Positions 3,322 through 30,564 of a stretch of DNA of 34,601 nucleotides are shown here, one piece after another. The stretch comes from Bacteroidaceae bacterium (GTDB lineage: Bacteria > Bacteroidota > Bacteroidia > Bacteroidales > Bacteroidaceae). The notes under the pieces are model-generated. The model was not told where the DNA came from. It ran no database searches and worked only from the letters and a program-made list of their open reading frames with translations. The stretch is from contig JAFWYQ010000052.1 in the NCBI GenBank assembly GCA_017517605.1, positions 1 to 34,601 of the forward strand, written 5' to 3'. How positions within the stretch are numbered: position 1 is the stretch's first letter; every line of letters starts with the position of its first letter. The position numbers were made by a program, and so were the translations under genes.

Positions 3322-3351
3322 TTTGTCTCATCTGCTTTCATTTTTGTTTCA
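3322..3351 (-). promoter_or_regulatory. Putative HTCS operator, copy 1
   Basis: The minus strand reads TGAAACAAAAA, nine bases, then ATGAGACAAA. The two TGARACAAA half-sites start 21 bases apart, about two helical turns, and a weaker TGAAAG sits between them. The same pattern with identical spacing occurs at 30535-30564 upstream of the seven-gene uptake cluster. AraC-type domains of Bacteroides hybrid two-component regulators are known to bind direct repeats upstream of the genes they control. Assigning this site to the HTCS encoded in this window is inference. Confidence 0.5.
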
Positions 3352-3575
3352 TTTCGTTAAAAAGCGTAGATTTATCAAAAAAGCAACCATATCGCCCTTT
3401 CGGGAGCCTATAAATGTACCAACTACGGTTAATTGGCTACAAATATACACATTTTCATTGATTTAAGGGCATAATTGCACTTTTTTTCTTGTTAAATACA
3501 GAAGTTTGGGCACGAATGACACGGATTGACACGGAGATTTTCATATACAGGGACTATTTTTTGTTATCATACGCT

Positions 3576-3651
3576 GTAGGGGCAATCCCTTGTGGTTGCC
3601 CGATAATAAATTACCAACATATTCAGGGCAACCACAAGGGATTGCCCCTAC
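3576..3651. repeat. REPIN-like palindromic repeat pair, copy A1
   Basis: Two inverted REP units: the left arm begins GTAGGGGCAATCCCTTGTGG and the right arm is its near-complement, ending GGATTGCCCCTAC. A loop of about 25 bases (GATAATA...ATATTCA) separates them. The total is 76 bases, the same as the copy inside the transposase gene (8750-8825). It is probably mobilised by the RAYT encoded at 8544-9089. Confidence 0.8.
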
Positions 3652-3691
3652 GGTGGGCGATAACAAAAGAACACAAGAATTAAGGGAAGTC

Positions 3692-3723
3692 TTTTGTTCT
3701 TTTGTTCTTTTGTTCTTTTGTTC
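3692..3723. repeat. 8-base tandem repeat (TTTTGTTC x4)
   Basis: Four perfect copies of TTTTGTTC. A second tract with two copies is at 3807-3822. Both tracts have the same flanks (GGGCGATAACAAAAGAA... before, TTATATCTAAAATAAAAT after), so about 3650-3738 and 3768-3841 are direct duplicates that differ in repeat number. Confidence 0.85.
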
Positions 3724-3859
3724 TTATATCTAAAATAAAATAATTATCTGTCATCTTTGCCCCTACGGTGGGCGATAACAAAAGAATATAAGAATTAAGG
3801 GAAGCCTTTTGTTCTTTTGTTCTTATATCTAAAATAAAATATTTCCTCTTTGTCCCTTC

Positions 3860-3934
3860 GTAGGGGCAGACCTATGTGTCTGCCCGGAATATGTGACAAT
3901 CTATTATTGGGCGAACACACAGGTCCGCCCCTAC
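3860..3934. repeat. REPIN-like palindromic repeat pair, copy A2
   Basis: The left unit begins GTAGGGGCAGACCTATGTGT and the right unit ends CAGGTCCGCCCCTAC. It is 75 bases long. The hairpin arms differ from copy A1, but each arm keeps its internal pairing (GGGCAGAC with GTCTGCCC). Confidence 0.8.
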
Positions 3935-4004
3935 GGTGGGCGATAACAAAAATCCCTGTATATGAAACAACCAGGTCAATCCATGACATCCGTGCCTAAA
4001 AGGC

Positions 4005-4065: not shown

Positions 4066-7000
4066 TTACTTCTTGATGATCTTTTCAACCTTGACAGTAC
4101 CGTCGCTCATGAACTTACGCATGATGACAACACCCTGTTGGGCCTTGGCAATGCGGCGTCCGTTCAAGTCGTAGAGTTCGATACCCAATACCTGAGCAGG
4201 AGCAGCGATATTCTCTTCTACACCAGCAACAATTTCTTGGTATGCAGAATCATAGTCGAATCCTTCAGCAGCGCCACACATCAACAACTGAACATTGTTG
4301 AAGAATGTAGCTGAACCACTTCCTGCTTGCACACCAATCGTCAACACGCCATCATCAACAATAACTTGCTGAGATTCGATGTTCAATTTGGGGAATGCCT
4401 GACCCACATAAGGACATTGAACAGAATCTGCATATTCACCTTCAAGAGTATTAAAAGTCTTCAAATACATGAACGAACCATCAATATCAGTTTCAGATGC
4501 ACGTTCACCGAATCCGACCTTAACTGTGTAAACACCAGCGGGAAGATCTACGATAGTCTGTTCTACAGCATAAGCACCACCCCAAGTTTGGAACGAGCAG
4601 TCTGAAATATGATATCCAGGACCATTACCCCAACCGTAACTCAAGCCAGGAGTATTTGCGCCCTCGGGAACAACCCAACCAAGAACATTGGTAAGGGTAT
4701 CCTTAGTCTCCTTATTAATATATGTGAAATCCAATGCGTCATACAGTCTGTAGATATTAGGATTCTTCACAAATACAGTCAAATCGTATGTAGGAATTGT
4801 AATATCAGCAGTTTCAGGATTTTCAACAGGAGCAAACAATGTATTGTCAGTATTCTTCAACTGACCGAAGATCTCCAACTTCAAACGTGCCTTAATCATT
4901 TCAGCCAATTCATCATCGTCTGTCAAAGCATTGTTAGCAGCCAGAATAAGAGGATCGTTAGCATCCACGCCCAATGATTTCAAAGCCTCAGCACCCAAGC
5001 GCAGACGTTCAATCATAGCGGCGACACCCGTGGTAGGATTACCATCCATAGTAGAAGCACCTTCAGTAAAGAGCTTGCTAGCAGTATTAACAGGAACAGT
5101 CAATTCATTGACAGCAGTCTGCAACTCTGTACCATCAGTAATTGTCTTACCTACGTAAGATACGATAACCGTATCTCTGGTTGCGCCAGTTTCGGGATCA
5201 GTCAACGTTTCTGTAGTCTCAACCTTAACAATATACTTGGTCTCCATAGCCTTCAACTCAGCATAGAGTTCAGTAGCGGCAAACTTCTTCGCAGCATTGT
5301 CATCTACCACCTTCTTCAACTGATTAGCTTGTGCATAATAAGAATCGCAAAGAGCACGGTGGTCTGACATTGCCTCAGCGGCAGCATCCAAAGCCGCAAC
5401 AGCATTGTTATAAGAAGAAGGATTAGTGTAACCACTATATTCAGCTTCGTACTTAGCTACAAGAGCATCCAAAGTTTCGCGGTCAGTACCGGCATATTTT
5501 TCGTCGGCCTTGGCAATCTCCAATACACTCTTAGCTGCAGTAAGAGACTTAATCAAGTTCTGGGTTTCTACCACACCGGCAGCATTAGGCAAGTAAGTTA
5601 CTTGAGGATTACCCAAAACAATCTCATTCATACCATTAGCAACCAATGCATCGGTCGCATTAACCGGAGTCCAACGCAATCTGTAGTTACCAGTTGTTTC
5701 GGGAACAAATGTATATTCCACAAAGTTAGAACCAGAAACCATACCACCAGAAGCACCGTTTGCAGTACCCTTACATTCATCGAATTGAGAGTGAACAATT
5801 TCACCATCCTGATTATAAATTTCAAAGCGAGCGTAAGTAGTGCTCTTCCATGCCAACAGATTGTAAGTAATCTTATACTTTTTACCTGCTTCCAGAGTCA
5901 ATTCGTAACCTTCGATGCTACCATACTCTACAATACATTGATCAGGAGTATCATTGTTTGTACGGGTATATATACCTCTCGTAAAGTCACCTCCTCCAGC
6001 GAAAGCCTTCATCCAAGCACCACCGCTACCACCAGAAAGCGGTTCACGTTGAGCGCCATCATATACAATATACCAACCTTCAGGGATTGTATTTTCATTA
6101 GCAGCAGAGAAATAGTCGGGCAAAACGGCACGAACTGTATCATTTGGATCGGTACTTACCTTACCAATATTCAAAACAAGTGTAGTATCACCAGCCATTC
6201 CACCTTCAAAGATGTCAATCTCAGGAAGGATGTTGGTGATAGCGAGTTCATACTGACCTGCAACCAAATCACCTGTGCTTGTACGCTTCAAAATGATTTT
6301 TTCAGCCATACCTTCTACAGCATCAACAGGTTCAACAGCCAAGGCTTCTTTGCCCAACTTAGCAACTAACTGTGCGACATCTACATTCTTGTCGAATGTC
6401 AACTTGAACTCACTGATGCTGTTAGGCAAATTGAATGAGCCATCTTCGGGATCAGCAGCAATCAAAGTAGGAGTAACGAAGAGGTAAGAGTATGCATCCT
6501 CAGCAGAAGAAGCTTCAGAATCTTGGCTAACCACACCATCGAAATTCTTCACATCACCACCAGGACCACCATCGTAAACCAAATGGTAAGCAGCATCAGC
6601 AGGATTGGTAAAGGTCATAGTCACTTCATCGTCATCATTGAGGGCGTCCTCAAGGAATACATAAAAACGGCCATCGGCAAAACCTTCTACAGACAATATA
6701 GAAATCTCTTCACCCTTAACCTTTACACTTACGCATTCGTTAGGATACATCAAGCGGGGCTTGCCACATGCAGCTACCAATGCCGGCAAGTTAGTATCAA
6801 ATCCAAAGTCGAGCTTGATAACGTCGCCATTGAATCCAGCAGATACACCATACTTATATTCCTCAAAACGGATGTTGTCAAAGTAGTATGTCACCTCTTC
6901 GTCCATAGAGAGGTTGAATGCGATAGATTGGAAGAGTTTTTCATCACTACCAGCTTGTTCTGCGGTAATTTCGCCTTCATACTTATAGCTCTGCCATTCG

Positions 7001-7869
7001 GTAGTGAAAGCCGGATTATTAATCATCGCGTAATGAATATAGTTACCCGGATTTGCATGGGCCTGAGTAGCTACTGTAACCTCCTTAGTAGCCTTGTAAT
7101 CGAATGTTACACGATACTTAGTACCAGCAGGAAGAGGTTCGGGCAATACAATCCAGAACTGAGATTCGTAATCATTGGTCACCTTAGCAGGAGCAGTCAC
7201 AACAATACCGTTACCACCGTTCTTACCCAAAGTGTCCACTACTGTAGCAGGAAGGATTTCTTCAGATGGAGCAACCTTAGCCATGAAGTTACTCATATCA
7301 TCACCATCCAAATCTGCATTGGTAGTAATTTCAGTCCAACCTACTTGCTGCACTTTACCGGCAAACTCCACTTCGATGCTTTCAACTGTCACATTAGCCC
7401 AGTTGGCACCTTTAATGGCATGGAGATGACAGAAGCCATAATCCTTGGTAATGGCTTTCAAATCATAAATATAGACATTACCATCGATGGTCTGATACTT
7501 GCTGGTACACCAATTCTGGTTAGGTATATCCACCAACTTGGAATCTTCAAAGGTAGCAGCACCTTGACCATCTTTTTCCAAGCGGTTAAAGAGTACACGG
7601 GGAGTACCCTCGGTCACAGTAACATACAGTTTTGAATAAAAAGTCAAATCTGCAAAATTAATAACACTCATGTCTCCATAGACATTTCCTGTAGATGTAC
7701 CTACTCCCCATTCACAACCGGCATCACCTGTCTTCACGGCATCACCAAGATAGCCATCCCAAGAACAGAAGGGAACCTCCTGGAGAGAGATACGTTCCTG
7801 AGCATTTACACTCATAACGCCCACAAATGACAATGCAAGCGTCAAAAACATACGGAAAGTTTTTCTCAT
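4066..7869 (-). CDS. Large secreted multidomain protein, paralogue of the 1061-aa protein
   Basis: A 1267-aa protein with a signal peptide (MRKTFRMFLTLALSFVGVMS, cleavage near VNA/Q24). Visible parts: an N-terminal beta module at about 27-172 (EVPFCSWDGY...CEWGVGTSTG...LYVTVTEGTPRVLFNR), unlike the first module of its paralogue; a jelly-roll at about 178-337 that clearly matches the second jelly-roll of the paralogue; an Ig-like part at 345-432; a Big_5-like module at 470-570; an extra beta module at about 580-760 absent from the paralogue; a helical stalk at about 765-1010; a C-terminal jelly-roll at 1025-1200; and a sorting-type tail at 1228-1267 (ELYDLNGRRIAKAQQG). No catalytic residues were recognised. 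The two paralogues suggest duplication followed by module exchange. The gene has its own promoter and terminator. A binding or adhesion role is likely; the ligand is unknown. Confidence 0.85.
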   Translation of the reverse strand: MRKTFRMFLTLALSFVGVMSVNAQERISLQEVPFCSWDGYLGDAVKTGDAGCEWGVGTSTGNVYGDMSVINFADLTFYSKLYVTVTEGTPRVLFNRLEKDGQGAATFEDSKLVDIPNQNWCTSKYQTIDGNVYIYDLKAITKDYGFCHLHAIKGANWANVTVESIEVEFAGKVQQVGWTEITTNADLDGDDMSNFMAKVAPSEEILPATVVDTLGKNGGNGIVVTAPAKVTNDYESQFWIVLPEPLPAGTKYRVTFDYKATKEVTVATQAHANPGNYIHYAMINNPAFTTEWQSYKYEGEITAEQAGSDEKLFQSIAFNLSMDEEVTYYFDNIRFEEYKYGVSAGFNGDVIKLDFGFDTNLPALVAACGKPRLMYPNECVSVKVKGEEISILSVEGFADGRFYVFLEDALNDDDEVTMTFTNPADAAYHLVYDGGPGGDVKNFDGVVSQDSEASSAEDAYSYLFVTPTLIAADPEDGSFNLPNSISEFKLTFDKNVDVAQLVAKLGKEALAVEPVDAVEGMAEKIILKRTSTGDLVAGQYELAITNILPEIDIFEGGMAGDTTLVLNIGKVSTDPNDTVRAVLPDYFSAANENTIPEGWYIVYDGAQREPLSGGSGGAWMKAFAGGGDFTRGIYTRTNNDTPDQCIVEYGSIEGYELTLEAGKKYKITYNLLAWKSTTYARFEIYNQDGEIVHSQFDECKGTANGASGGMVSGSNFVEYTFVPETTGNYRLRWTPVNATDALVANGMNEIVLGNPQVTYLPNAAGVVETQNLIKSLTAAKSVLEIAKADEKYAGTDRETLDALVAKYEAEYSGYTNPSSYNNAVAALDAAAEAMSDHRALCDSYYAQANQLKKVVDDNAAKKFAATELYAELKAMETKYIVKVETTETLTDPETGATRDTVIVSYVGKTITDGTELQTAVNELTVPVNTASKLFTEGASTMDGNPTTGVAAMIERLRLGAEALKSLGVDANDPLILAANNALTDDDELAEMIKARLKLEIFGQLKNTDNTLFAPVENPETADITIPTYDLTVFVKNPNIYRLYDALDFTYINKETKDTLTNVLGWVVPEGANTPGLSYGWGNGPGYHISDCSFQTWGGAYAVEQTIVDLPAGVYTVKVGFGERASETDIDGSFMYLKTFNTLEGEYADSVQCPYVGQAFPKLNIESQQVIVDDGVLTIGVQAGSGSATFFNNVQLLMCGAAEGFDYDSAYQEIVAGVEENIAAPAQVLGIELYDLNGRRIAKAQQGVVIMRKFMSDGTVKVEKIIKK

Positions 7870-7928: not shown

Positions 7929-7960
7929 GTGTATATACGTGCAATAGATTTTTCTACACG

Positions 7961-7974
7961 TTTTTTTTTTTTTT
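7961..7974. repeat. Homopolymer tract of 14 T (A on the coding strand)
   Basis: An uninterrupted T14 on the plus strand, about 33-46 bases upstream of the -7 element of the 1267-aa gene. Its position would allow it to act as an A-tract upstream element, and its length makes slippage plausible. Confidence 0.6.
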
Positions 7975-8108
7975 GTATTTGTTGCAAGAGAGGCATTAAA
8001 GCGAGATTCAGGCCTAATATACCCATAGGCCGTATAATGGATAATATTCAATACTTTTCGCATATTATCCGTATTTTTGAGCATAATAGTATAGCAAAAC
8101 ATTCGGCC

Positions 8109-8148
8109 TTTATCTCCATTTATCTCCTTCTATCTCCCTTTATCTCCA
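8109..8148. repeat. 10-base tandem repeat (TTTATCTCCA-type, 4 copies)
   Basis: Four consecutive 10-base units: TTTATCTCCA, TTTATCTCCT, TCTATCTCCC, TTTATCTCCA. The core TATCTCC also occurs in the 23-base repeats at 8328-8430. Confidence 0.85.
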
Positions 8149-9089: not shown

Positions 9090-9177
9090 AGATGACAACG
9101 GTTTAGATTGAGATGCAAATGTAGGAATACATGGGATGTATAAACGATTCAATTTCAAATATGAGATAACATCCGCC

Positions 9178-13305: not shown

Positions 13306-13336
13306 CAAAGGTAATAAAATTTCTACCATACGCAAC
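13306..13336 (-). promoter_or_regulatory. Putative promoter of the HTCS gene
   Basis: On the minus strand the -7 element TACCTTTG (13306-13313) fits TAnnTTTG and is preceded, at 19 bases, by GTTG (13333-13336), three of four matches to the -33 TTTG. The transcript would begin about 20-40 bases before either candidate start codon. Confidence 0.55.
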
Positions 13337-13363
13337 ACTTTTATATGCTTTTCTTTTCTTTTT

Positions 13364-13377
13364 GTCTCAATGTCTCA
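13364..13377 (-). promoter_or_regulatory. Paired TGAGAC half-sites upstream of the HTCS gene
   Basis: The minus strand carries TGAGACAT immediately followed by TGAGACAAAAA. The half-site matches the operator-like elements at 3322-3351 and 30535-30564, but the spacing is 8 bases, not 21. It lies about 50 bases upstream of the -7 element. It could mean weak autoregulation; it is less convincing than the other two sites. Confidence 0.3.
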
Positions 13378-13829: not shown

Positions 13830-13898
13830 AGCGTACGATAACAAAATATAGTCCCTGTATATAATAAAAACCGTGTTAATCCGTGTCTAAAAATCCTA

Positions 13899-18993: not shown

Positions 18994-20643
18994 TTACTCT
19001 TCACTAACAACGTCTGTTCTCGGACGCAAATAGATGCAGTCGAGATACATCTCACGTGAATATTTCGTACTTTGCGTTGCTGTGATGGTACATTTCAACT
19101 TCACAGTAGTCTTAACGTCCTGCAGAGCATAAGTACAAGCGGGGAAATGGAAATTCTCGGCCAGTACTACAGTATCAATGCGGGCAGGATCAGTGATAAA
19201 GTCCGTATTATTGCAATTGAAACTCTGAGGAGTTCCATTCTCGTCCACATAATTGATAGTAGCCTTGAACTTACAAGGTTTGAAGGTCTCGTCGGGGAAA
19301 ACAACCGTACGCGGCAGAACAATGGCGCAAATATCGTAGTTTGCACTCAATGCACTGGATATCTTAAAAGTCATTTCCCACTGTGATGTAGCTTTCTCGG
19401 GAAGAATCTGCAGATAACCAGCCTCAGAGATACTGTCAACAGCCAAACGACGTGAATTGTAGTAACAAGACTTGTACTCCGTGATATACGTTTCATACTC
19501 ACTCTCCATCCATATCTCGTGGAAGAAGGTCTTCAAGGGGTCGTAATTCCACTCGTCCATCTCGTAGATGATACCGTTGCTACACTCGATTTCGCGGGCA
19601 TTGGCAAGGACTCCATCCGCAGCAAAGGGCTTGTGGAATACATGATACACCGGCTTCAGATAGCTGCTCGGGCGATAATAAGGAACGGACACCATAGAAT
19701 CAAGCGATGACAAAGTTCCTTCGGCCTTGGCAGTTTCATACCAAGGATTGAGAGTCACGTTGAAAACTGCATCCTGCATCAGAGCAAGCATGGTAAAGCG
19801 TTGCTGCAGAGAGTCGCGCTTGTTCACCTTGTTGTCATACATGAAGTATTTTGAAGTCTCTTCCCACAAACTGTTCCATTTGTCCTTGGTTGGAGCTGCT
19901 ACCAAGTAGAGAGAGTCCTCTCTGTTGATGTAACCGAGAGCATCCAACATCTTGTTACGCTCGATAATGACAGAATCGACATAAACGGGTACACCTTCGA
20001 CAACACCGCTTGAGATAGACTGGTCGGCATCAAAGTAGTCCTCTTCGTATGAACGCAACAGGGCACCGATGGGAGCCAACTCATCCTTATCGCACAACAT
20101 TTCATAAAGATTGCGCTCGTAAGGAATGGGCGATTCAGACACATGCAACATACCATTCTTGGCACGTTGGTTGGGAGTAACCATCGTTACTCCCTCAATT
20201 TTTCCATTTTCGTAGTCGGCATACTTGGCATTCAGCAGCAACACACGCTTATCCTCAGCTGTCACTGAACTGAGCGAACGCGAAAGGTGATTGAAAACGA
20301 AAGATTTCTCAACCACAGAGTCTCCCTGAGCTGTCTGCACCATTGCCAACAACGACTCTTTGTCGAACGAACCGTTCAAAGGAGCTACTACGGTAAAGCT
20401 CTGTCCGCCGTCCAACAACTCGGCATAACTTACTGATGTCTTCTTGTGCTGACGGAACACCTTGGTCTCCTGCAACACTTCAGCGAAATCAGTCAATTGC
20501 GGATTCTCATCAATCATCTGCCACAGGCTCTTGTTGCTACCCGCACCACCATTGTCAGCATTGCTGAAGTGGTCGTCCCAATCAGAGCAAGCCACCAAGC
20601 AGCTTGCAAACAGGGGAATGGCATACAATATATGTTTTTTCAT
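18994..20643 (-). CDS. Fasciclin (FAS1) domain surface lipoprotein, 549 aa
   Basis: A lipoprotein with signal peptide and lipidated C19 followed by SDWDDHF, an acidic surface-export pattern. A FAS1-like domain spans about 38-174 (SLWQMIDENPQLTDFAEVLQ, FTVVAPLNGSF, NGMLHVSESPI). A second, more diverged one is at about 177-366 (LYLVAAPTKDKWNSLW, ECSNGIIYEMDEW). A C-terminal beta-rich region at about 370-549 may be a ligand-binding sandwich; it shows no motif I can name. It sits between another FAS1 lipoprotein gene (41-base gap) and the SusC-like gene of pair 1 (40-base gap), the position of surface glycan-binding proteins in Sus-like loci. A surface binding role is inferred; FAS1 domains in general mediate adhesion. 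Confidence 0.8.
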   Translation of the reverse strand: MKKHILYAIPLFASCLVACSDWDDHFSNADNGGAGSNKSLWQMIDENPQLTDFAEVLQETKVFRQHKKTSVSYAELLDGGQSFTVVAPLNGSFDKESLLAMVQTAQGDSVVEKSFVFNHLSRSLSSVTAEDKRVLLLNAKYADYENGKIEGVTMVTPNQRAKNGMLHVSESPIPYERNLYEMLCDKDELAPIGALLRSYEEDYFDADQSISSGVVEGVPVYVDSVIIERNKMLDALGYINREDSLYLVAAPTKDKWNSLWEETSKYFMYDNKVNKRDSLQQRFTMLALMQDAVFNVTLNPWYETAKAEGTLSSLDSMVSVPYYRPSSYLKPVYHVFHKPFAADGVLANAREIECSNGIIYEMDEWNYDPLKTFFHEIWMESEYETYITEYKSCYYNSRRLAVDSISEAGYLQILPEKATSQWEMTFKISSALSANYDICAIVLPRTVVFPDETFKPCKFKATINYVDENGTPQSFNCNNTDFITDPARIDTVVLAENFHFPACTYALQDVKTTVKLKCTITATQSTKYSREMYLDCIYLRPRTDVVSEE

Positions 20644-20684: not shown

Positions 20685-22613
20685 TTAATGCGTATCCTCA
20701 CCTTCGGGACTGGCATACACACTCTTGGGACAAAGTTCGATGAAGTCGAATGACAAATAACATTCGGGATCATCCAATACCTGACGCAGACGCAACTTGT
20801 AAGTTTCCTTTTCGTCCAAATAGGTAGTAACCAAGATACGACGCAGGTTGTTAGAGTTGGTGCGGAACGTATTTTCAGAATCATACTGACGGTATGAGTC
20901 GATACCCTTCATGTAGCCACGGTTGTGCATAGCCTTGTCGTTGGCAATGTTCTCTTCCTCATCGTCGGTATCTTCAATCCAACCGATTCTGGGATCACCA
21001 CCAAACACACGCAAGTCAACAGGAATACCACAAGGTTCGTTGTTCAAATATACCTGCACCACTCCACGTTCTACGTTTGCAGTATAACCGAAACGAATTT
21101 CGTATGTGCCAGACGGTACAGGAGGCAATTTGAATTCTGCGTCGAAGATACCACTGACAGTCACACCATTGGAGTAGTAGTGCTGCCACCAAGGCTGGTC
21201 GCTATGTACTCCCACAAAGGTCTCATCACTGATTTCCCATCCAGAGATGAAGCCTTTCTTCATACCCTTAAGCTCGTTTGCGTCATAACGTCCACGGCCA
21301 CCACTGTTCACAAAGTCGGGACTCAAAGTGGTTGCATCCTTACGGATACGGCAGTTCAATACCACCTCGCGAACATTCGTATCATACACGAGAATATCAT
21401 CCAAATAGTGATATACACCGTTCAAGGCATTCTGGTCTATGCTACCGGATTCAGAAGGAGAAAGCACTCTCACACCACGACAATTGTCATCAATGCGTTT
21501 CTGGAATCCCTTGCGGTTGATGAACAATCCCACACCGGCAGGCTGGGCCACACGCATGATTGTACCCGGACACATGGTCTCGAAGAACTCTTCAGGGTCA
21601 CACACGCTGGTAAGGAAGCAGTGCTCCAACACTTGACTGGGAGCCAAAATGTTGTTGTACTGAAGAATCATAGGCAGGAAATGGTAGCTGACAAAACGGT
21701 TCAACGGATTCTTGCGATGCGTAAAGTCATTGTCGTAGAATCCTGCATCCTCAGGATAAGTCTGGTCATACACCGTCTTGGCATAAGCAATAAGATCATC
21801 AATGGTATAGATTTCTTTTGCATTGAACACTGCATCAGGCTCAACAAACGCCGTGTATTTGAAGTATCTCTTTTCCGGCCAGAAACAGGGATTGGTACCT
21901 TCGGCACGACACTTCTTGGGATAACCATCGAAAACGGAATCCTCACCACAAGAATAGGTCAAATCCAGATAATAACGCAACGAGTCATCCATATTGGTCA
22001 ACTCCATAGCTTGAGCAAACAACGTCAATGTGGTGTCGGCAGCAATTCTGTCGGGCAAGAAGTCGCTGGTACGGGTAATCACACTGTTTACCGTGTGTAC
22101 CACACCATTGGTCACAGAGTCGTCGTACTCAATCATACGCGCGTTCTTATTTATATAATAGATCAACTCGTTGTTGTTATACACATCCGAGTCGCTGGAG
22201 AGGACGATGTAAGAATCCTCCATAGTCATCTCAGGCATGGCACCTTCCACCACATCAACAGTAAAATATGCACCCTTTCGGATAATGTGTGTACGGGCCA
22301 AGGTATCGCAATTCTCGTCGGTCAAGGCTTCGATACCCGGAAGTCCCAATTCATTCACATATTTATCAATCGCATCATTAGTGGGAGCAAACAAGGTAAA
22401 CTCGCCGTATGTAGAGAGCAACGCATAATAGGGGGTACGTTGCAGGATATTGATAAACTGACTGAAGCGTTCGGGATTCTCCTCCAAGAAGCCTGCCGCC
22501 GTCACTTTGGTGGAAGCGTAGTAGTTGACTACCACGTCGTCGTTGTCCACACAGGAGCCCATTGCAAAACTTGCCAACAGGACACCCAACATATATTTTA
22601 ATGTCTTTTTCAT
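20685..22613 (-). CDS. Fasciclin (FAS1) domain surface lipoprotein, 642 aa
   Basis: A lipoprotein with lipidated C21 (FAMGSC) followed by VDNDD. The first FAS1 domain is clear at about 36-187 (FSQFINILQRTPYYALLSTYGEFTLFAPTNDAIDKY...TNGVVHTVNSVI). A second, long and diverged one is at about 190-420 (DLIAYAKTVYDQ...LNGVYHYLDDILVYD). A C-terminal jelly-roll-like region follows at about 425-640 (FDAEFKLPPVPSGTYEIRFGY, VVQVYLNNEPCGIPVDL, YLSFDFIELCP), a pattern common in carbohydrate-binding or surface beta-sandwich modules. It lies immediately after the SusD-like gene of pair 2 (35-base gap). It is likely exposed on the surface and helps capture the ligand; the ligand is unknown. Confidence 0.82.
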   Translation of the reverse strand: MKKTLKYMLGVLLASFAMGSCVDNDDVVVNYYASTKVTAAGFLEENPERFSQFINILQRTPYYALLSTYGEFTLFAPTNDAIDKYVNELGLPGIEALTDENCDTLARTHIIRKGAYFTVDVVEGAMPEMTMEDSYIVLSSDSDVYNNNELIYYINKNARMIEYDDSVTNGVVHTVNSVITRTSDFLPDRIAADTTLTLFAQAMELTNMDDSLRYYLDLTYSCGEDSVFDGYPKKCRAEGTNPCFWPEKRYFKYTAFVEPDAVFNAKEIYTIDDLIAYAKTVYDQTYPEDAGFYDNDFTHRKNPLNRFVSYHFLPMILQYNNILAPSQVLEHCFLTSVCDPEEFFETMCPGTIMRVAQPAGVGLFINRKGFQKRIDDNCRGVRVLSPSESGSIDQNALNGVYHYLDDILVYDTNVREVVLNCRIRKDATTLSPDFVNSGGRGRYDANELKGMKKGFISGWEISDETFVGVHSDQPWWQHYYSNGVTVSGIFDAEFKLPPVPSGTYEIRFGYTANVERGVVQVYLNNEPCGIPVDLRVFGGDPRIGWIEDTDDEEENIANDKAMHNRGYMKGIDSYRQYDSENTFRTNSNNLRRILVTTYLDEKETYKLRLRQVLDDPECYLSFDFIELCPKSVYASPEGEDTH

Positions 22614-22648: not shown

Positions 22649-24358
22649 TTACTTGTTCGTTGTCAATTCATTATCCTCCGTATCTGAATAGGCAGGATTC
22701 TGCTTGAGCAAAGGATTTACCTTCAACTCGCTTTTTGCATACGGGAAATAGATACGGTCAGGGTTGGCCAACTTAATCTTGATGGCATTCACATTCTCGA
22801 TATACTTGCGGGTAGCAAGTGTAGAGAGGCGTGTGTTGTTACCATCACGACGGGCAATACGCACCAAGTCGAACCAACGCTTACCTTCAAACATGAATTC
22901 GCGATGACGCTCTTCCAACAACAAATTCTCGATTTCCAATTTTGAAGCTATATAATCGGCCATCTTCAAAGTATCGGTACGTGAAGAAATGGGCGATGCG
23001 TCAATGGCACGCTTGTTCACAGTATTAATCAAGTGGAATGCACGCTGAAAATCAACAGCCACACCCGTTGTATCCACCATACCACGCTGAATCAACGCTT
23101 CGGCCTTCATCAGGATGGCATCGCTCAAACGATAGAATATCCAGTTGGCAGTGTTTGAAGAGCGACTACTTCCTGAGAAATTCAAACTGCTTTCAGATGT
23201 TACACTCTGCGTAGTGAAACTAACACTTGAGTAGTAGAACTTACGGGGATAATAACCCTGATTTACCATCGAAACGTTAGAATAAGCACGTCCGTCAATC
23301 TTCTTGAACAGGGAATTCTGTCCTGTAGTCACTTCCTGACGAAGGAAATCAGGTGCACCCAACTGACGGATTTCATTATCTTTGTTTCCATAATAGTTAC
23401 TTACCCACGCATTTGACTGATTCTGTGTTTCTGTAAAATATAGTTCAAAAATTCCCTCAAAAGAGTTTCCGTCTCCAAAGATTTCGTTGTAAGAATTACC
23501 ATAATAATTACTGCCTGAAGGCTTGTCCAAAATCATTGGAATATCTCCAAAGAGGTCAATATTGGGAACCTGTCCATCACGTTCCAACATCTCTTCATAT
23601 TGCTGGCGTTTGAAGTCCAACACCATATCGCAATACTTGATGCAGTTGTCCCAATCGCCTCTCCACAAGTAGAGGTCGGCCAACAAAGCCCAGATGGATA
23701 CACGGGTAATGCGGCTGCTGTTCTGGTAAGCACTGGAACTTTCGTCCTGATAATAACGGCGTACGGCATCGTTCTTCACCTTCTCGAGGTCAGTAATCAG
23801 AGAATCGAGGACATCGTTGAAGGGAGTAGCCGGCAACACATACTCCTGTGCATCATCGATACTCGGCTGAGTGGTATAAGGCACATCGCGGAATGTACGA
23901 ATCAAATAGAAGTAGCACAAAGCACGAATGGCTGAAACCTCAGCAATGTTAGCACGCATCTCAGACTCAGTATAGTTGGGGTCGATAGCCTGCACATGAG
24001 GGGCATAATAACAAACCGTGTTACAACGGTTAATGGTCTGATAGAACACTTCCCAACTACACCATGAATTGGTAGGCAGGATATTCTCCTTCAGAATCTG
24101 AGTAATTTCATCAGAAGGGTTTGAACCGGCTTTCAGGTTGTCGCTTCGCAACTCGCCCCAAACTCCCATACGCTCCACACTCTTTGATGAACCGAGCGAC
24201 TCGTAGCAACTGTTCACGACACTGGTGACGTCGTTCTTGTCTGTCCAGAAGTTTTCAAGCACCACCTCGTTCATCGGCAGAGTGTCGAAGAAATCTTCAC
24301 ATCCTGTCAATGCTGTGGCGATGAAAAGGGAGCAAACTATATATTTAATCTTTTTCAT
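22649..24358 (-). CDS. SusD/RagB-like outer-membrane lipoprotein (pair 2)
   Basis: A 569-aa lipoprotein: lipobox ATALTGC (C20) followed by EDFFDTLP, a typical SusD mature N-terminus. SusD-fold segments are visible: VVNSCYESLGSSK, NRCNTVCYYAPHVQAI, IRALCYFYLIRTFRDVPYTT, LLADLYLWRGDWDNCIKYCD, YRLSDAILMKAEALIQRG, EERHREFMFEGKRWFDLVRIARR, and a C-terminal stretch ending LKQNPAYSDTEDNE. It partners the SusC-like protein encoded 32 bases upstream. It differs strongly in sequence from the SusD-like protein of pair 1. Confidence 0.94.
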   Translation of the reverse strand: MKKIKYIVCSLFIATALTGCEDFFDTLPMNEVVLENFWTDKNDVTSVVNSCYESLGSSKSVERMGVWGELRSDNLKAGSNPSDEITQILKENILPTNSWCSWEVFYQTINRCNTVCYYAPHVQAIDPNYTESEMRANIAEVSAIRALCYFYLIRTFRDVPYTTQPSIDDAQEYVLPATPFNDVLDSLITDLEKVKNDAVRRYYQDESSSAYQNSSRITRVSIWALLADLYLWRGDWDNCIKYCDMVLDFKRQQYEEMLERDGQVPNIDLFGDIPMILDKPSGSNYYGNSYNEIFGDGNSFEGIFELYFTETQNQSNAWVSNYYGNKDNEIRQLGAPDFLRQEVTTGQNSLFKKIDGRAYSNVSMVNQGYYPRKFYYSSVSFTTQSVTSESSLNFSGSSRSSNTANWIFYRLSDAILMKAEALIQRGMVDTTGVAVDFQRAFHLINTVNKRAIDASPISSRTDTLKMADYIASKLEIENLLLEERHREFMFEGKRWFDLVRIARRDGNNTRLSTLATRKYIENVNAIKIKLANPDRIYFPYAKSELKVNPLLKQNPAYSDTEDNELTTNK

Positions 24359-24390: not shown

Positions 24391-27300
24391 TCAGAATTGT
24401 ACAGTCACACCGGCAGTGAATGACTTGGCACGCGGTGTCTGTGCATTATCACTGGATACTCCGTAACCTCCGTAACCCACTTCGGGGTCAGCACCTGAAT
24501 ACTTGGTGATACAGAAAAGGTTGTTGGCTGACACATACAAGCTAAGACGGTTAAGACCAAATTGCTTGAGCACCTTCGGGTCGACCGAATAGTTCAACTG
24601 AGTATAGTTCAAACGAATGAACGAACCATCCTCCACAAAACGGTCGCTACCCAAGTAGTTGTAACCGGCTTTATAAAGAGCACGAGGAATGCTGGTAATG
24701 TCACCCTCAACACGCCAGCGCCAGTTAACGGCACGGCTCTGGTTATTGTTGGAGTACATGTTTTCGGCATTCATACGGGCCATGTTGACAATCTTGTTTC
24801 CATAACGGAAGTTGAACTGGTTGTTCCAAGAAAGACGACCGAAGCGGAGCTTGAAACCGAAACCTCCAGTAAACTTGGGCAAAGAAGAACCCAAATAGAC
24901 AATATCCAACTCGTCAATTGAACCATCAGCATTCACGTCATCATAAATGGCATCACCACCACGGAACTCGTAATTGGTGGTTCCGGCACGGAACATCATG
25001 GGTTTGGTTCTGTCATTTTCGTCGAGAATCACCACACCATCCTTGTCGCGTACAACAGGTGCATTAGGACCACTTACACCGGGAACTTCCTCGGCTGAAT
25101 ATTCAGAATATTGGTAAACACCCTTGTAGCGGAAACCATAGATGCTACCCAACGCATGATTCAACTCTACACGTGAGAGATAAGAACCGTTGTTACCATC
25201 CCATTCCTTGTTCAGACTTATCAAACAAGTTTCGTCCATTTTGGTCAACTCGTTTCGGTTGTTGGCGAAAGTCACGTTGAAGTCAGCAGCAAACTTACCT
25301 ATTTTAACAATAGAGTTACCGTTCAAGTTAAACTCCCAACCAATGTTCTCCATGTTACCCACGTTGCGTGTAGCAAAAGAGGAATAACCGGAAGAGGTGG
25401 GAATACCATAGTTACCCATCAACAAGTCGCTGGTGTACTGCCAATAAAGTTCCACATTACCTGTGAAACGGTCATCCCAGAATCCGAAGTCGGTACCCAA
25501 GTTCCAAGTTTCCTTTTCCTGCCACTTCAAGTTACTCAAACGGATGTTGTTGGGATGGATAGAGGTCTGTCCCAAATATCCGCTACCGTTAGCATATCTA
25601 CTATAGAAAAGATATTCCTGACCCGGCTGTGAACCTACAATACCCCAACCCGGACGGATTGAAAGCATGGACACCCAAGGCAACACATCCTGGAACCACG
25701 GCTCGCGGCTTATATTCCAGCGAACTGATAATGCGGGGAAGTTACCCCAACGCTTGTCGGGTCCGAACTTGGTAGTACCGTCGCGACGTACAGAGAAGTC
25801 GGCCATATAACGTCCCTTATAAGCATAGTGGGCTGAGTAGGTGAAATAGATACTACGTGATTGTCCACTACCGGTACCCATACCAGAGATGATACCATTG
25901 GCACCCGTATTTTGGATAGTACCTGAAGGTGTACCCCACGTGGTAGTGTTCTGTGAAGTAGAGCTACCTGTTGACATCTGTCCGCGCAACATCATGCTCA
26001 ATGAATGGTCACGATTCTTGAACACGGGCGTAAATGTCAATGTGTGAGTAGTGGTAAGACCAAAGTTCTTGTTCGAACTTGCCGTAGTACGGTTAGCCGC
26101 CTTACCATTGGTATCGTTCCATCCGGCAGTAATAAGCGACAAAGGCATGTATTGGTCGCTATACGAGTTGAAGATATTGAACATCACCTTACCTTCGTAG
26201 TTCAAGCGTGTTCTCTCCTCACCTACACCCAAAAGGTCGTAACGCAACACGAACTCAGGCTTGATATCGTAACTTGTGTTTTTACTTTTTGCAAGATATG
26301 CCAAAGCTACCGGGTTGTTCTGAGTCATCTGGTTGTCGCGGAACTCCTGTGATACAGAAGGTAATATGTGATAGAATACACCCAAATCGTTACCCTGCTT
26401 ATCCTGCTCATAGATAGAGAGGTTAGGCATACGGTTGTAGGCTATACCCAAAAGTCCACCGGTATGCGAAGAGTTCTGATTGTCGGTATAAGTCAATGAG
26501 ATGTTGGTCTCAATCTTGATACGGTCACTTACAAAGTAGTCCAAGTTGACACGTGAAGTGAAACGGTCGAGCTGCTGTGTGATAATAGAACCTGTTTCGC
26601 GGTCGTAACCGGCACCAATACGGAAGTGGGCCTTCTCACCACCACCGGTCAATGAAACATAATGATTCTGACGGAAACCAATCTGTTTTACAGCATCCAA
26701 CCAATCAGTGTTGTTGTTGTACATCTCATACTCAGAGAAACTGGGGTCGTAATTCAACTCTACAATGTTGCTGGCTGCATCACTAAGTGTAGGGTTAAAA
26801 TACTCTTCCTTCAACAACATGGTATATTCGTCACCATTCAACATCTTATATCCTTGGGGCTGATAAGTAGCACTCAAACGATAGCTGTATTCAACACGGG
26901 TCTTACCACGTGTACCACGCTTGGTCTTGATTTCGATTACACCATTTGCACCCTGAGAACCCCAGATGGCTGTAGCGGCAGCATCCTTCAACACCGAAAT
27001 GCTCTGGATATCTTCGGGATTGACGTTCAACAACTGTGCAAAGTTTTCTTCGTTGGCTGAGTTGAAGTCGAAGTTCTCGGTATTGGTTGACAACACGTTA
27101 CCATCGACCACAATCAAAGGTTCGCTGGAACCATTGATGGTAGATACACCACGCAAACGCATAGATGAACCTGCACCCAAGTTACCTGAGTTGGCCACAA
27201 TATCCAAACCGGCAATACGTCCCTGAAGAGCTTCGTCGACGGTAGTGATACCCAAACCTTCGAACTCTGTCATATCAATGCTCTGACGGGCTGTGGAGAT

Positions 27301-27696
27301 TTCGTCCAAAGGAATGGCCAAACCAGAACCGTCAGCCTTCTTACGTGAAGTAATCACCACCTCTTCAATCAAAGCCTCGTCCACCATCTTGATGTCGAAC
27401 TTCAATTTATTAATAGGTAAAGTCACGGTCTTGTAACCTACGTATGTTACACGCAGTTTGTTCTTGGGATTCTTCAAACGGAAAGAGAAGTTACCGTTAA
27501 TGTCCGTTACCGCATTGGCCACAATACGGTTGGCAGCATCCAATTCCACGACATTGGCAGCCATCACTGGACCAAAATCATCGGTAACGGTACCACTGAT
27601 CATGTCGCCCACATTTTGGGCAAACGCACTGGCTACTGACAGCTGACAACCGACAGCCATCAATCCCATTATCTTTATTATTCTGTTTGTACTCAT
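24391..27696 (-). CDS. SusC-like TonB-dependent outer-membrane transporter (pair 2)
   Basis: A 1101-aa protein with a signal peptide (cleavage near AFAQ, residue 27); a carboxypeptidase-regulatory-like domain at about 33-107 (ISGTVTDDFGPVMAANVVEL...GNFSFRL); a TonB-box-like IEEVVIT at 110-116; a plug domain with the SusC signature LKDAAATAIWGSQGANGVIE (236-255); a beta-barrel ending in AGVTVQF with a terminal aromatic residue. All features of an active SusC-type importer are present. It forms a unit with the SusD-like lipoprotein just downstream. A second in-frame Met at residue 10 could also be the start; the first is kept because it leaves a normal signal peptide. Confidence 0.95.
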   Translation of the reverse strand: MSTNRIIKIMGLMAVGCQLSVASAFAQNVGDMISGTVTDDFGPVMAANVVELDAANRIVANAVTDINGNFSFRLKNPKNKLRVTYVGYKTVTLPINKLKFDIKMVDEALIEEVVITSRKKADGSGLAIPLDEISTARQSIDMTEFEGLGITTVDEALQGRIAGLDIVANSGNLGAGSSMRLRGVSTINGSSEPLIVVDGNVLSTNTENFDFNSANEENFAQLLNVNPEDIQSISVLKDAAATAIWGSQGANGVIEIKTKRGTRGKTRVEYSYRLSATYQPQGYKMLNGDEYTMLLKEEYFNPTLSDAASNIVELNYDPSFSEYEMYNNNTDWLDAVKQIGFRQNHYVSLTGGGEKAHFRIGAGYDRETGSIITQQLDRFTSRVNLDYFVSDRIKIETNISLTYTDNQNSSHTGGLLGIAYNRMPNLSIYEQDKQGNDLGVFYHILPSVSQEFRDNQMTQNNPVALAYLAKSKNTSYDIKPEFVLRYDLLGVGEERTRLNYEGKVMFNIFNSYSDQYMPLSLITAGWNDTNGKAANRTTASSNKNFGLTTTHTLTFTPVFKNRDHSLSMMLRGQMSTGSSTSQNTTTWGTPSGTIQNTGANGIISGMGTGSGQSRSIYFTYSAHYAYKGRYMADFSVRRDGTTKFGPDKRWGNFPALSVRWNISREPWFQDVLPWVSMLSIRPGWGIVGSQPGQEYLFYSRYANGSGYLGQTSIHPNNIRLSNLKWQEKETWNLGTDFGFWDDRFTGNVELYWQYTSDLLMGNYGIPTSSGYSSFATRNVGNMENIGWEFNLNGNSIVKIGKFAADFNVTFANNRNELTKMDETCLISLNKEWDGNNGSYLSRVELNHALGSIYGFRYKGVYQYSEYSAEEVPGVSGPNAPVVRDKDGVVILDENDRTKPMMFRAGTTNYEFRGGDAIYDDVNADGSIDELDIVYLGSSLPKFTGGFGFKLRFGRLSWNNQFNFRYGNKIVNMARMNAENMYSNNNQSRAVNWRWRVEGDITSIPRALYKAGYNYLGSDRFVEDGSFIRLNYTQLNYSVDPKVLKQFGLNRLSLYVSANNLFCITKYSGADPEVGYGGYGVSSDNAQTPRAKSFTAGVTVQF

Positions 27697-27729
27697 AATT
27701 TTTCGATTTTAGAGTTTTCCACCATGTCT

Positions 27730-30372
27730 TTATTCTTTCGGTTTTTTGTATGAAAGCGGTTTGTTGATAAGGTGGATAACCGCTGAAGATGATGTTTCAA
27801 TCTGGTTAACTGTCGAAGCATCCTTACCATTATATTGGTATTCGCGCGCCATCAAATTGTAGCAACCCGGCTTATCAGTCTGCACTTTGGCTGGTTCATC
27901 ACCTTGTTTCCAAGAATTGTCTTTCAAAATGATTTCGCTACCTGTTGATTCTGCCGAGATACGAGAGAATCGTTTGGTACTTTGATCAATCAAAGCAGTT
28001 TCAAAGTCACCTTTTTCGGGAGCTGCACCAATAAAGAGAGCGTTGTCCTGAATGTGGTAGCGAAGGAAACTTTCAATCGCCAATGAATCTTTAGTCGATT
28101 TTGCATACAATTCATTAGCAGCCTCAATATTACCAGCCTCCTCAGCAGCTTCACCTGCAATTCTGGAAGCTTCCACATCTTCCCAATCAGGAAGCTCACC
28201 AGCATCCAGCAATGCCAGAATACTTTCATTCTCGGGAACGTACACGGTGTAATGATAAGTATTGAATACCGAAACATTGGTACCACCGCAAATGTAACGG
28301 TCGTTGTGCAGAACCTCGTACAATGAGCTACCCTGCATCAATTCGTTGAACACGGAGAATTCAGGGATGCTATCCAACCAGTCGTGTACTGTCATACGGG
28401 TACCCAAGATAGGACCGGACTCGAGGATGTAACTCTTTCCATTACCACCTGTGGTCTCCTTGCTCTGGTCGTAGATTTCACTAACAAGAATAGGAGCAGT
28501 TTCATTAATCTGATAACTACCGGCAACGGTCATATTCGGTTTACCTGCATTTTCCACACGAATTTCGGTACCACCCTTGGTGCGGTAGTAAGTGTGGCCA
28601 TCTTCCACATTACCAATCACGATATGTGTTTCGAGAACATCTTGCAAACGATTTTTAATTCGATCATCGCCACCTTTCACATATTCAAGGCTGTCGCCCA
28701 ATTCACCGGTAACTGGGTCGTAGTTCCATACACTGGCCCAAACACATTCTTCATACGGTTTTGTAGGATCGTAATGGAAACGATAAAGCTGGGTCTTGTT
28801 CTTACCGAATGAAACAGGATCCACATACTCCAACAAACCATTATTGGTGGGAATAAAGAAGCTGTAGGTCGCATTCAGAGAGTTGAGGTACACGTTGTAT
28901 TGCAACTGATTGATAGCCCAGTCAACAATCTTCATGGTCTCGTTAATCAACGGAGGGTATGATACACTGATAAATTTGGTAGGAGTAAACACCTTATTAG
29001 TAAGGTATACAGCACCGTTACAACCCAACCACACAGAGTCAACATCAGCGATATTGATACCCATGGGGTCGTTGGCATCGTTGAGGATATTGTTGAACTT
29101 GGACGGAACAGACGAAATGAATGAACTGAGCATGTTCACATTGATCAACTCAGCAATTACATTGTTGGGAACATTTTCCCATTCACCGTAATAGTTTTTC
29201 AACACGCTACCATTTCCGTCTTCACCGTTCCAATAAGTATTCATAGCTTCATTGCTGGGTACCATCATCACGGCCATATCCTTCTGCATGGCTGTGTTAC
29301 CTTCACCGGCAAGACCTGCATAATAATCATTCCATCCCGGATCGAATTTCAAAAGTTCTTGAACAGCATCATCATTGGGATCCATATCCAAAGTTACACC
29401 ACCGGCAGACTTCTTGGAGAAGAAACGTTTGGTGAATACCGTATCCACATTAGCACCATACAATTCATTGTAACGGATGGTGACACTTCCATCCTGATCG
29501 GGATTACGATCGGGATAAGGTGCACAGAAACGCTCCAACAAGTTGTTGAAGATGCTGACATTCGGTTTGCTGGCAATCAAGTCGGCCATATTGGGACGAG
29601 GAGTGATAACCTCAGCCATACGGTGGATAAAGCCATTTGAACAGCGGATGTTACCCTCCTCCACCTTTATACCATTCACACTGGCATCACCCGGTTGGCG
29701 ATTGGTGGTATAGTTGAACAGGAAGTTGTAATCATCGTTAGTGATTCTTTTGTTCTCCAATTGTCTTTCGATAAAGAAGAGCAAAGGCACTATAGAATTG
29801 TCAGTCAAGCAGACCATGCTTCCGTCGCGATTGTCGCGATAATACTGCCAATAAGAATTTTCGGGCATCAATTCGGCATTCATCACAGTCACCGAATCAT
29901 ATACCGAGCTGGAAGCATAACGGCGCATACACTCACCCTCGATTGGCTCAGGATCTGTAGAAGTACCTTGAATGCTGGGCAATACACTCAACTGCATGGA
30001 GTTGTCGAGCATACTTCCAAAAAGAAGGAGCTTCTTCTGTGACGTAGTAAGTTGTTTATACCCACTTACACCCCATGAATTGTTCTGATAAAAACGTTCG
30101 TAAGCGGCATCGTCTGCCACAAACAATGTTTTCGAACCCGTCTTGGCCAGCACTTCCTTATAGCCAAGATCTTCAATCATTTGCACTGTGTTGGTAAAGT
30201 TACCTTGGTCGTCCAACCAATTGTAGATGCTACCACCCCAACCATCAGGGGTACGTTCATCCAGGTCATAAACGTCGGTGCACGACGTAAAGGCACTACC
30301 TACCAACAGCACTCCGGCCGCCAACGCTGCTAAGTGTCGACTTTGCCTCAAGATTTGTCTTTCGGTTTTCAT
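27730..30372 (-). CDS. Large fasciclin-repeat surface lipoprotein, 880 aa, first gene of the cluster
   Basis: A lipoprotein with a long charged N-terminus and lipobox AFTSC (C31) followed by TDVYDLDE. About four FAS1-like modules can be traced: 46-262 (KTLFVADDAAYERFYQ...NGFIHRMAEVITP), 266-490 (VSIFNNLLERF, VMMVPSNEAMNTYW, GAVYLTNKVFTP), about 493-690 (NATYSFFIPTNNGLLEYV, VLETHIVIGNV) and about 693-870 (FSVFNELMQGSSLYEVLHND, YTVYVPENESILALLDAG). The later modules are diverged, so the count is approximate. It sits 33 bases before the SusC-like gene of pair 2, at the head of the transcript, directly after the shared operator-like element. A role in surface ligand capture or adhesion is inferred. 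No enzymatic motif was seen. Confidence 0.8.
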   Translation of the reverse strand: MKTERQILRQSRHLAALAAGVLLVGSAFTSCTDVYDLDERTPDGWGGSIYNWLDDQGNFTNTVQMIEDLGYKEVLAKTGSKTLFVADDAAYERFYQNNSWGVSGYKQLTTSQKKLLLFGSMLDNSMQLSVLPSIQGTSTDPEPIEGECMRRYASSSVYDSVTVMNAELMPENSYWQYYRDNRDGSMVCLTDNSIVPLLFFIERQLENKRITNDDYNFLFNYTTNRQPGDASVNGIKVEEGNIRCSNGFIHRMAEVITPRPNMADLIASKPNVSIFNNLLERFCAPYPDRNPDQDGSVTIRYNELYGANVDTVFTKRFFSKKSAGGVTLDMDPNDDAVQELLKFDPGWNDYYAGLAGEGNTAMQKDMAVMMVPSNEAMNTYWNGEDGNGSVLKNYYGEWENVPNNVIAELINVNMLSSFISSVPSKFNNILNDANDPMGINIADVDSVWLGCNGAVYLTNKVFTPTKFISVSYPPLINETMKIVDWAINQLQYNVYLNSLNATYSFFIPTNNGLLEYVDPVSFGKNKTQLYRFHYDPTKPYEECVWASVWNYDPVTGELGDSLEYVKGGDDRIKNRLQDVLETHIVIGNVEDGHTYYRTKGGTEIRVENAGKPNMTVAGSYQINETAPILVSEIYDQSKETTGGNGKSYILESGPILGTRMTVHDWLDSIPEFSVFNELMQGSSLYEVLHNDRYICGGTNVSVFNTYHYTVYVPENESILALLDAGELPDWEDVEASRIAGEAAEEAGNIEAANELYAKSTKDSLAIESFLRYHIQDNALFIGAAPEKGDFETALIDQSTKRFSRISAESTGSEIILKDNSWKQGDEPAKVQTDKPGCYNLMAREYQYNGKDASTVNQIETSSSAVIHLINKPLSYKKPKE

Positions 30373-30457
30373 ACTATTAAAAAATTATTTATTAAGTTTA
30401 TTTGATAATTTCTCTCTCTTGCGACATACAAAGTATATGCGCGTTATTTTACGGATG

Positions 30458-30465
30458 CAAAATTA
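30458..30465 (-). promoter_or_regulatory. -7 promoter element of the seven-gene cluster
   Basis: The minus strand reads TAATTTTG, matching TAnnTTTG and identical to the -7 element before the 1061-aa gene. It lies 85 bases upstream of the first start codon. No -33 TTTG is seen at 19-21 bases, again suggesting activator dependence. Confidence 0.5.
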
Positions 30466-30534
30466 GAAAGAATCTGACAATTTTACATTAAACAACGTTT
30501 ATATTTTTATTTTAAATGTCACATAGGTTTCATA

Positions 30535-30564
30535 TTTGTCTCATGCGATTTTCTTTTTGTTTCA
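30535..30564 (-). promoter_or_regulatory. Putative HTCS operator, copy 2
   Basis: The minus strand reads TGAAACAAAAA, nine bases, ATGAGACAAA, with the same half-sites and spacing as 3322-3351. Two further related half-sites follow toward the promoter: TGAAAC starting at 30532 and TGTGAC starting at 30523, so successive starts are 21, 11 and 9 bases apart, roughly on one face of the helix. It lies about 50-70 bases upstream of the -7 element. Confidence 0.55.

Follow-up and report, generated by a model that had tools for sequence, protein, structure and literature searches.

A putative direct-repeat operator of a hybrid two-component regulator links a FAS1/SusC/SusD cluster to a distant secreted-type protein gene in a Bacteroidaceae bacterium

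Among the main switches by which gut Bacteroidota respond to glycans are the hybrid two-component systems (HTCSs), whose operators have, to our knowledge, been described mainly for Bacteroides. This report concerns a 34,601-nt stretch of DNA from a Bacteroidaceae bacterium (contig JAFWYQ010000052.1, or C53; hereafter the window), in which one tandem-repeat element lies upstream both of a seven-gene cluster encoding fasciclin (FAS1), SusC-like and SusD-like proteins and of a distant gene for a secreted-type protein, SP1061. Both sites are very likely operators of the HTCS encoded at 9276-13277, which would activate a set of xylan-linked genes. The sites, their spacing, their conservation and their association with one type of recognition helix are read directly from the sequence. 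The operator, its distance from the promoter and the matching helix are readable across dozens of genomes, including the complete genome of Prevotella communis E15-14, and the HTCS specificity code, the doubled sites of the uptake promoter and the role of an HTCS-linked small RNA are now open to direct testing.

The first-pass annotation had interpreted a 30-base pattern, TGAAACAAAAA-N9-ATGAGACAAA, as an HTCS direct-repeat operator linking the cluster to the surface protein, an interpretation that the sequence comparisons support. The pattern occurs exactly at 3322-3351 and 30535-30564, in both cases on the minus strand and 5' of minus-strand genes, i.e. in the same orientation relative to the gene. 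A chance repeat is ruled out, as no occurrence is expected from 100 shuffles and only two places in the assembly (2,965,347 bases in 134 contigs, 80.5 % complete), both within the window, match with three or fewer mismatches; the reversed pattern finds none there at that tolerance. Across 15 genomes of the genus, the same tolerance yields 20 matches in eight genomes versus five reversed-pattern matches in five genomes, so the bare pattern is noisy, and one zero-mismatch match (G002:C29:124027) has a score of just 12.5 bits under the profile described below.

Alignment of 14 sites from the window and its genus relatives (five before clusters, two before SP1061 genes, three before homologs of U1267, a secreted-type relative of SP1061, and four before HTCS genes) gives the consensus ATTGAGACAAAAAGAAAAGCGnATGAAACAAAAGnnAAA. 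In keeping with the predicted direct repeat, the operator in this alignment consists of two tandem units of ~21 bp, and both units contain a TGARACAAA box as well as a second, A-rich one. The half-sites and spacing are identical at both genes, as had been claimed, but the N9 is no free spacer, for the second A-rich box of unit 1 falls within it as a conserved GAAAAnC-like box. Both promoters carry the -7 box TAATTTTG and, as also foreseen, no TTTG 19-21 nt upstream of it; that TTTG is likewise missing from the U1267 promoter and from the HTCS promoter, where GTTG stands. From unit 1 to the TAnnTTTG box the distance is 56-59 bp at the SP1061, U1267 and HTCS promoters and 99-100 bp at all five cluster promoters, and the two 30-base sites accordingly differ (58 bp at SP1061, 99 bp at the cluster). 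The count of two sites in the window proved too low, since a third, related site (13328-13371), first spotted by eye, precedes the HTCS gene. A fourth, 5' of U1267, is degenerate; correctly placed and poor in sequence, it was excluded from the alignment and dropped from the model as a functional operator.

At the cluster, the repeat pair recognized earlier is real, but it belongs to a doubled operator that had been overlooked, with four units at about 100, 79, 58 and 37 bp from the -7 box where the other promoters have two (58 and 37 bp). The two promoter-proximal units were scored by a matrix trained on other promoters only, with 2000 Markov shuffles as the control. For the 58-bp unit the mean over five orthologs is 7.9 or 6.1 by two estimates, a value found in none of the shuffles at that or any offset, while the mean for the 37-bp unit is reached by none at that offset and by 19 at any offset. 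Simple self-similarity does not detect the array well, because a lag of 21 is the top lag in just three of the five ortholog promoters. When units of 3 bits or more are counted in ten cluster promoters of other genera, the full 100/79/58/37 array is present in L220, L224, L226 and L257, and two or three of its four units are present in G083, G046, G233, G245 and L245.

The operator precedes the same genes within the genus and beyond it, a favourable outcome for the earlier interpretation. Orthologous clusters (SusC 78-91 % identical) occur in four genus members; their promoters have a common footprint, and the flanks of the operator have diverged between orthologs. With the window counted, the operator is present in the genus at 5/5 cluster, 4/4 HTCS and 2/2 SP1061 promoters and at three of five promoters of U1267 homologs, the sites in G008, G007 (C55) and G002 being better than that of the window's own U1267. 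A profile, R1, was built from the 14 aligned sites, three of them from the window, and scanned over 17 chosen genomes. The window sites score 32.4 (cluster), 27.4 (SP1061) and 21.5 bits (HTCS), the next match in the genome scoring 16.1, a top rank that holds by construction because all three are in the training set. Six of six scanned genus members without the HTCS ortholog and orthologous cluster (G003, G004, G010, G011, G012 and G014) have no R1 match above 14.7 bits, and the cluster, SP1061/U1267 and HTCS sites co-occur with the HTCS ortholog, excepting G009, where a contig ends. In genomes outside the training set, sites lie before U1267 homologs (G083, G288, G233 and G046; E 7e-5 to 0.07), HTCS genes (G083, G288 and G245; E 0.014 to 0.25) and FAS1 genes (G233 and G046; E 0.05 and 0.14). 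Weak matches (10.7-18.3 bits) also precede a GH10-CE1 gene in nine of the ten genomes where that gene was found, the window's genome included (C95:9874-9910, 14.2 bits, E 0.18, with the gene match from 9977); for the G245 gene there is no site among the matches listed. The site is thus conserved before the same genes where the orthologous regulator is present, as in an HTCS direct-repeat regulon, and of the proposed two-unit regulon the link between the SusC/SusD cluster and a non-SusCD surface protein holds while its size does not, the regulon being larger. Other operator-like matches stand before a GH98 gene in G007 and a CotH gene in G288.

A general promoter element of SusCD/FAS1 clusters was considered and rejected, as five of 12 paralogous loci gave a usable promoter and none of these has such an operator; the remaining seven have no TAnnTTTG in place and no usable promoter, and none of the contigs of the 12 clusters is among the matches listed (to about E = 3). 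Upstream of the FAS1 gene, two paralogous clusters (L045 and L048, from G004 and G008) have a different common sequence, TTATTTGTC...ATATATGGGA, which may serve some other regulator as its operator.

In a wider comparison, the operator matrix was run on HTCS loci with their flanks, the best 80 of 211 relatives, most of them from uncultured Prevotella(ceae) and many, by their titles, from ruminants. Forward matches before and after the HTCS gene number 64 and 55, versus 15 and 15 for the reversed matrix and 3-7 and 5-12 for three permuted matrices. Removal of three loci belonging to training genomes leaves 77, in which a TAnnTTTG box lies at 58-61 bp in 114 of 123 plus-strand matches of at least 14 bits: 21/22 near the HTCS gene, 36/37 after it, 24/26 far upstream and 33/38 elsewhere, the genes behind this last group including U1267 homologs and GH43 genes; on the opposite strand there are FAS1 genes. 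The idea that the far-upstream site is a DNA-looping partner of the HTCS operator was dropped because the spacings between the two vary (~250-312 bp) and, for 24 of the 26 far sites, a separate -7 box stands at 58 bp. The A-rich character of the region and the many dispersed repeats in the window's intergenic DNA might suggest that the motif has no dedicated regulator and is just AT-rich DNA common upstream of genes, or a repeat that spread by copying from promoter to promoter; the constant promoter distance, the reversed-matrix control, the diverged ortholog flanks and the failure of the 12 paralogous-cluster contigs to appear among the matches listed make this highly improbable.

The same loci connect the operator to the regulator. 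Where the second helix-turn-helix (HTH) motif has the recognition helix NLAHFSTxFR[KR], a site lies near the HTCS gene in 48 of 55 loci, as against one of 22 with other helices (threshold 14; 43/55 versus 1/22 at threshold 18), an association inflated by shared ancestry, as the 77 loci are not independent cases. Another AraC-domain regulator, i.e. a paralogous HTCS, might still read the operators, alone or with the window's HTCS. In L251, L255 and L259, HTCSs that are 48-49 % identical overall and 76-78 % identical in the DNA-binding domain have strong sites (27-34 bits) just after the HTCS gene and nearly the same helix, so the operator seems to be common to another group of HTCSs; in P. communis, a second HTCS (DNA-binding domain 65 % identical) is encoded ~5.5 kb away from the GH10-CE1 gene; in G004, GH10-CE1 is preceded by a weak site (14.1 bits), and no HTCS ortholog was found in an assembly that is 78 % complete; and sites common to rhamnogalacturonan HTCS pairs are proposed for Bacteroides thetaiotaomicron in passages of PMC3878776. 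Since the next-best AraC domain in the window's genome is just 48 % identical to that of the HTCS (in an incomplete assembly from which a closer paralog may be missing), and the cluster, SP1061/U1267 and HTCS sites are found together with the HTCS ortholog outside G009, a paralogous reader is unlikely.

Several observations weigh against control by the window's HTCS or against the geometry proposed for it, besides the P. communis and G004 cases and the non-independence of the loci. Seven of the 55 NLAHFSTxFR[KR] carriers have no nearby site, L234 combines a site with another helix, and L240 and L248 narrowly miss the threshold. In the search of the 80 loci, which used a low threshold, most matches (198 on the plus and 115 on the minus strand) lie elsewhere, near background. 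No site was found at the second U1267 homolog of G007 or at more distant U1267 relatives in G008 (2203 aa) and G000 (2112 aa). G009 has the cluster and its site but no HTCS was found in it; the contig ends ~0.6 kb after the cluster. As to geometry, the window's own copies of cluster units 3 and 4 are weak (scores 2.7 and -4.7), the second unit is degenerate at the HTCS promoters, and the G377 cluster promoter, one of the ten outside the genus, has no array.

The window does encode the AraC-type regulator anticipated for it, an HTCS with the full domain set in a single chain, the Reg_prop part periplasmic and every domain above its curated cut-off. In the proposed mechanism, the periplasmic propeller would sense a xylan-derived oligosaccharide, the receiver would be phosphorylated and the AraC domains would be released, to form a dimer on two tandem units of ~21 bp. 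The promoter-nearest pair, at 58 and 37 bp from the TAnnTTTG -7 box, would extend to the expected -33 position, and because it reaches the place of the absent -33 box, the bound activator may stand in for that box in class II-like activation. Single pairs would serve the HTCS gene itself and the SP1061/U1267 family, with weaker sites at GH43 and GH10-CE1 genes, while the seven-gene cluster would have a second, stronger pair ~42 bp further upstream. We infer binding, activation, autoregulation and the role of xylan as inducer. Repression, the operator occluding the promoter, is improbable: passages of PMC11253607 report that BT2391, an HTCS whose receiver motif departs from the consensus, represses its polysaccharide utilization locus (PUL), but the absence of a -33 TTTG where the protein would sit suits activation. 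Moreover, the window's HTCS has SHIP, a form of the S/CHIP receiver motif that the same passages link to phosphorylation-dependent binding, as does one genus ortholog, although the other two of the three have AHIP, off the consensus at its first residue.

A link to xylan is suggested by the genes downstream of the U1267 and SP1061 genes in relatives, which include GH43, esterase, GH115 and GH5-GH43 genes as well as GH97, GH31 and GH95; in several relatives GH43 genes have weak operator sites of their own. Xylan-active enzymes are in this way linked to the locus, the window itself encoding none of them. As GH43, GH115 and GH10-CE1 occur together, decorated xylan is suggested as the substrate, with xylan as the inducer. 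Most likely, a gene set conserved in gut and rumen Prevotella relatives would be co-induced upon xylan sensing. Two added layers of control seem somewhat probable, whereby the doubled operator would tune the cluster to another regulator dose and a small RNA would give post-transcriptional feedback in xylan uptake. In Prevotella bryantii, XynR is reportedly a positive regulator of xylanases, and the Xus system has tandem SusC/D pairs in the order xusA-xusB-xusC-xusD-xusE-xyn10C; the present cluster departs from that order and has FAS1 proteins inside it.

The kind of system is already known, namely the HTCS direct-repeat regulon. For B. thetaiotaomicron, passages of PMC3878776 (Ravcheev et al. 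2013) describe HTCS direct repeats averaging 21 bp, a dimer model, regulons that join SusC/D operons with distant genes, and a 12-9-12 layout for HTCS_Rgu-1. Likewise, in Bacteroides xylanisolvens a single HTCS controls two separate xylan gene sets, PUL 43 and rPUL 70 (PMC4855328, in part). Because 21-bp direct-repeat regulons and two-locus xylan cross-regulation have thus been described, the present system is a new case of a known kind. It resembles the B. thetaiotaomicron regulons in its AraC-type HTCS, its direct repeats of ~21 bp and its joining of distant genes, and differs in genus and motif; the regulator table of PMC3878776, as far as seen, includes no xylan HTCS, and its passages mention no fixed -7 distance, four-unit arrays or HTCS autoregulation. 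With PUL 43 and rPUL 70 it has in common GH10, GH43, GH115 and CE genes and two tandem susC/D pairs, whereas those portions of PMC4855328 describe neither FAS1 proteins nor an operator. Passages of PMC12596196 contain no HTCS terms, and literature searches found no prior description of the four-unit promoter geometry or of an HTCS-linked small RNA.

That putative small RNA, apparently under the HTCS operator and previously undescribed, was detected by motif or model in at least 43 of the 80 HTCS loci, between the SusD gene or cluster and the HTCS gene. Predicted at ~130-240 nt and in many loci directly behind a copy of the operator, it is characterized by a conserved stretch similar to UAGUUAGUAGUU / TAGTTAGTAGTT, a small hairpin and a terminator whose loop reads GUAUGAGAAUA / GTATGAGAATA. 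In many Prevotella loci, 24 of which show the 58-bp spacing, a short region ending in a hairpin and T-run follows an operator placed 180-450 bp ahead of the HTCS gene. The loop motif occurs in 28 of the 80 loci, 26 of which have a candidate -7 box upstream; with offsets of 57-59 allowed and the best of all -7 boxes within 420 bp taken, the best operator placement reaches a score of 11 or more in 22, in every case at 58 bp. Over 23 aligned sequences, six of 21 predicted pairs change on both sides and keep pairing, and the terminator hairpin covaries. Scanning 33 sources with a model of the RNA added 15 loci, and the model gave a single match in each of five of 20 genomes, one of the five borderline. 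It has no match in the window and, among the window's three nearest HTCS-bearing relatives, matches G002 only. Nothing in Rfam exceeded the gathering threshold in six loci or in the window; a sub-threshold match is to Bacteroides-1 RNA (25.9 bits; gathering 43), on which a literature search found nothing. A target search in start regions, at two or fewer mismatches to the complement of the conserved stretch, found no enrichment (2/286 versus 4/375), a comparison flawed because some 'without' loci, such as L184, L254 and L257, carry the RNA. FopS, a 14-member family of ~65-70-nt small RNAs with sigma-ABfr promoters in B. thetaiotaomicron (PMC11697453, in part), is similarly tied to PUL control and ends in a 3' terminator hairpin; the present RNA differs in its predicted length, its single match per genome where tested and its place under the HTCS operator.

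The cluster, which lies entirely on the minus strand, reads FAS1-SusC-SusD-FAS1-FAS1(weak)-SusC-SusD. Its genes are 32-89 bp apart, and it ends 697 bp from the HTCS gene (Table 1). Paralogous copies of this layout occur in several genus genomes, and a text search of the literature found no description of FAS1 proteins in SusC/SusD clusters. SP1061 and U1267 are homologous to each other and match no Pfam family at 0.001. The AlphaFold2 model of SP1061 has a mean pLDDT of 79.2 and a pTM of 0.49, with most of the first ~177 residues unreliable. It has matches to CBM4-type modules, among them Rhodothermus xylanase CBM4-2 (TM by target 0.65, E 5e-5), 1gui (0.68) and 8xmz (0.72), while multidomain chains ranked higher (arabinoxylanase, insecticidal crystal proteins) have TM of 0.14 or less. 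A glycan-binding and perhaps xylan-binding role is plausible from this model.

Table 1. Positions of the features discussed (window coordinates unless a locus or genome is named)
Feature	Position	Strand	Remarks
SP1061, secreted-type multidomain protein	47..3232	-	CBM4-like fold match(es)
SP1061 promoter -7 box TAATTTTG	3286..3293	-	without -33 TTTG
SP1061 operator unit 2	3310..3330	-	
SP1061 operator unit 1	3331..3351	-	58 bp from -7 box
U1267, secreted-type relative of SP1061	4066..7869	-	
Degenerate U1267 operator	7945..7988	-	A-rich; spacing right, sequence weak; 58 bp from TATCTTTG
HTCS, 1333 aa	9276..13277	-	Reg_prop propeller, HisKA, HATPase, receiver, AraC HTH
HTCS promoter -7 box TACCTTTG	13306..13313	-	56 bp from unit 1
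HTCS operator	13328..13371	-	unit 1 strong, unit 2 degenerate; 4/4 genus orthologs, window counted
Cluster gene 7, SusD-like	13975..15702	-	
Cluster gene 6, SusC-like	15792..18953	-	
Cluster gene 5, weak FAS1 match	18994..20643	-	below curated cut-off
Cluster gene 4, FAS1 protein	20685..22613	-	
Cluster gene 3, SusD-like	22649..24358	-	
Cluster gene 2, SusC-like	24391..27696	-	
Cluster gene 1, FAS1 protein, 880 aa	27730..30372	-	
Cluster promoter -7 box TAATTTTG	30458..30465	-	without -33 TTTG
Cluster operator unit 4 (proximal pair)	30482..30502	-	weakest; inferred; 37 bp from -7 box
Cluster operator unit 3 (proximal pair)	30503..30523	-	weak in window; TGTGAC...; 58 bp from -7 box
Cluster operator unit 2 (distal pair)	30524..30543	-	
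Cluster operator unit 1 (distal pair)	30544..30564	-	5/5 ortholog promoters, 99-100 bp from -7 box
GTAGGGGC...GCCC palindrome regions	8750-8826, 9178-9242, 3576-3952, 13482-13848		also in other intergenic DNA
Operators just 3' of HTCS coding region	L251:13911, L255:13900, L259:13912		helix nearly the same
Putative small RNA examples	L187:9661-9832; L201:9687-9883; G233:C1:2848281-2848364 (NZ_CP091794, P. communis E15-14, minus strand)		

The window also contains repeats of other kinds. A 204-aa Y1 transposase-like open reading frame (8544-9158; match below cut-off) lies beside dispersed GTAGGGGC...GCCC palindromes, which together with it we take to resemble a REP/RAYT system. Upstream of U1267, at 8301-8438 and 8111-8147, the DNA is tandemly repeated, with repeat units of 23 bp (TTGCAGTATATCTCCATTAGCAC) and 10 bp. 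Lastly, an identical 30-mer, TGAAACAAAAATCAGTCATTAACAGAAAAA, is found in four genomes (G002:C20, G002:C49, G003:C11, G007:C163 and G008:C85), where it may belong to a mobile element or a conserved gene.

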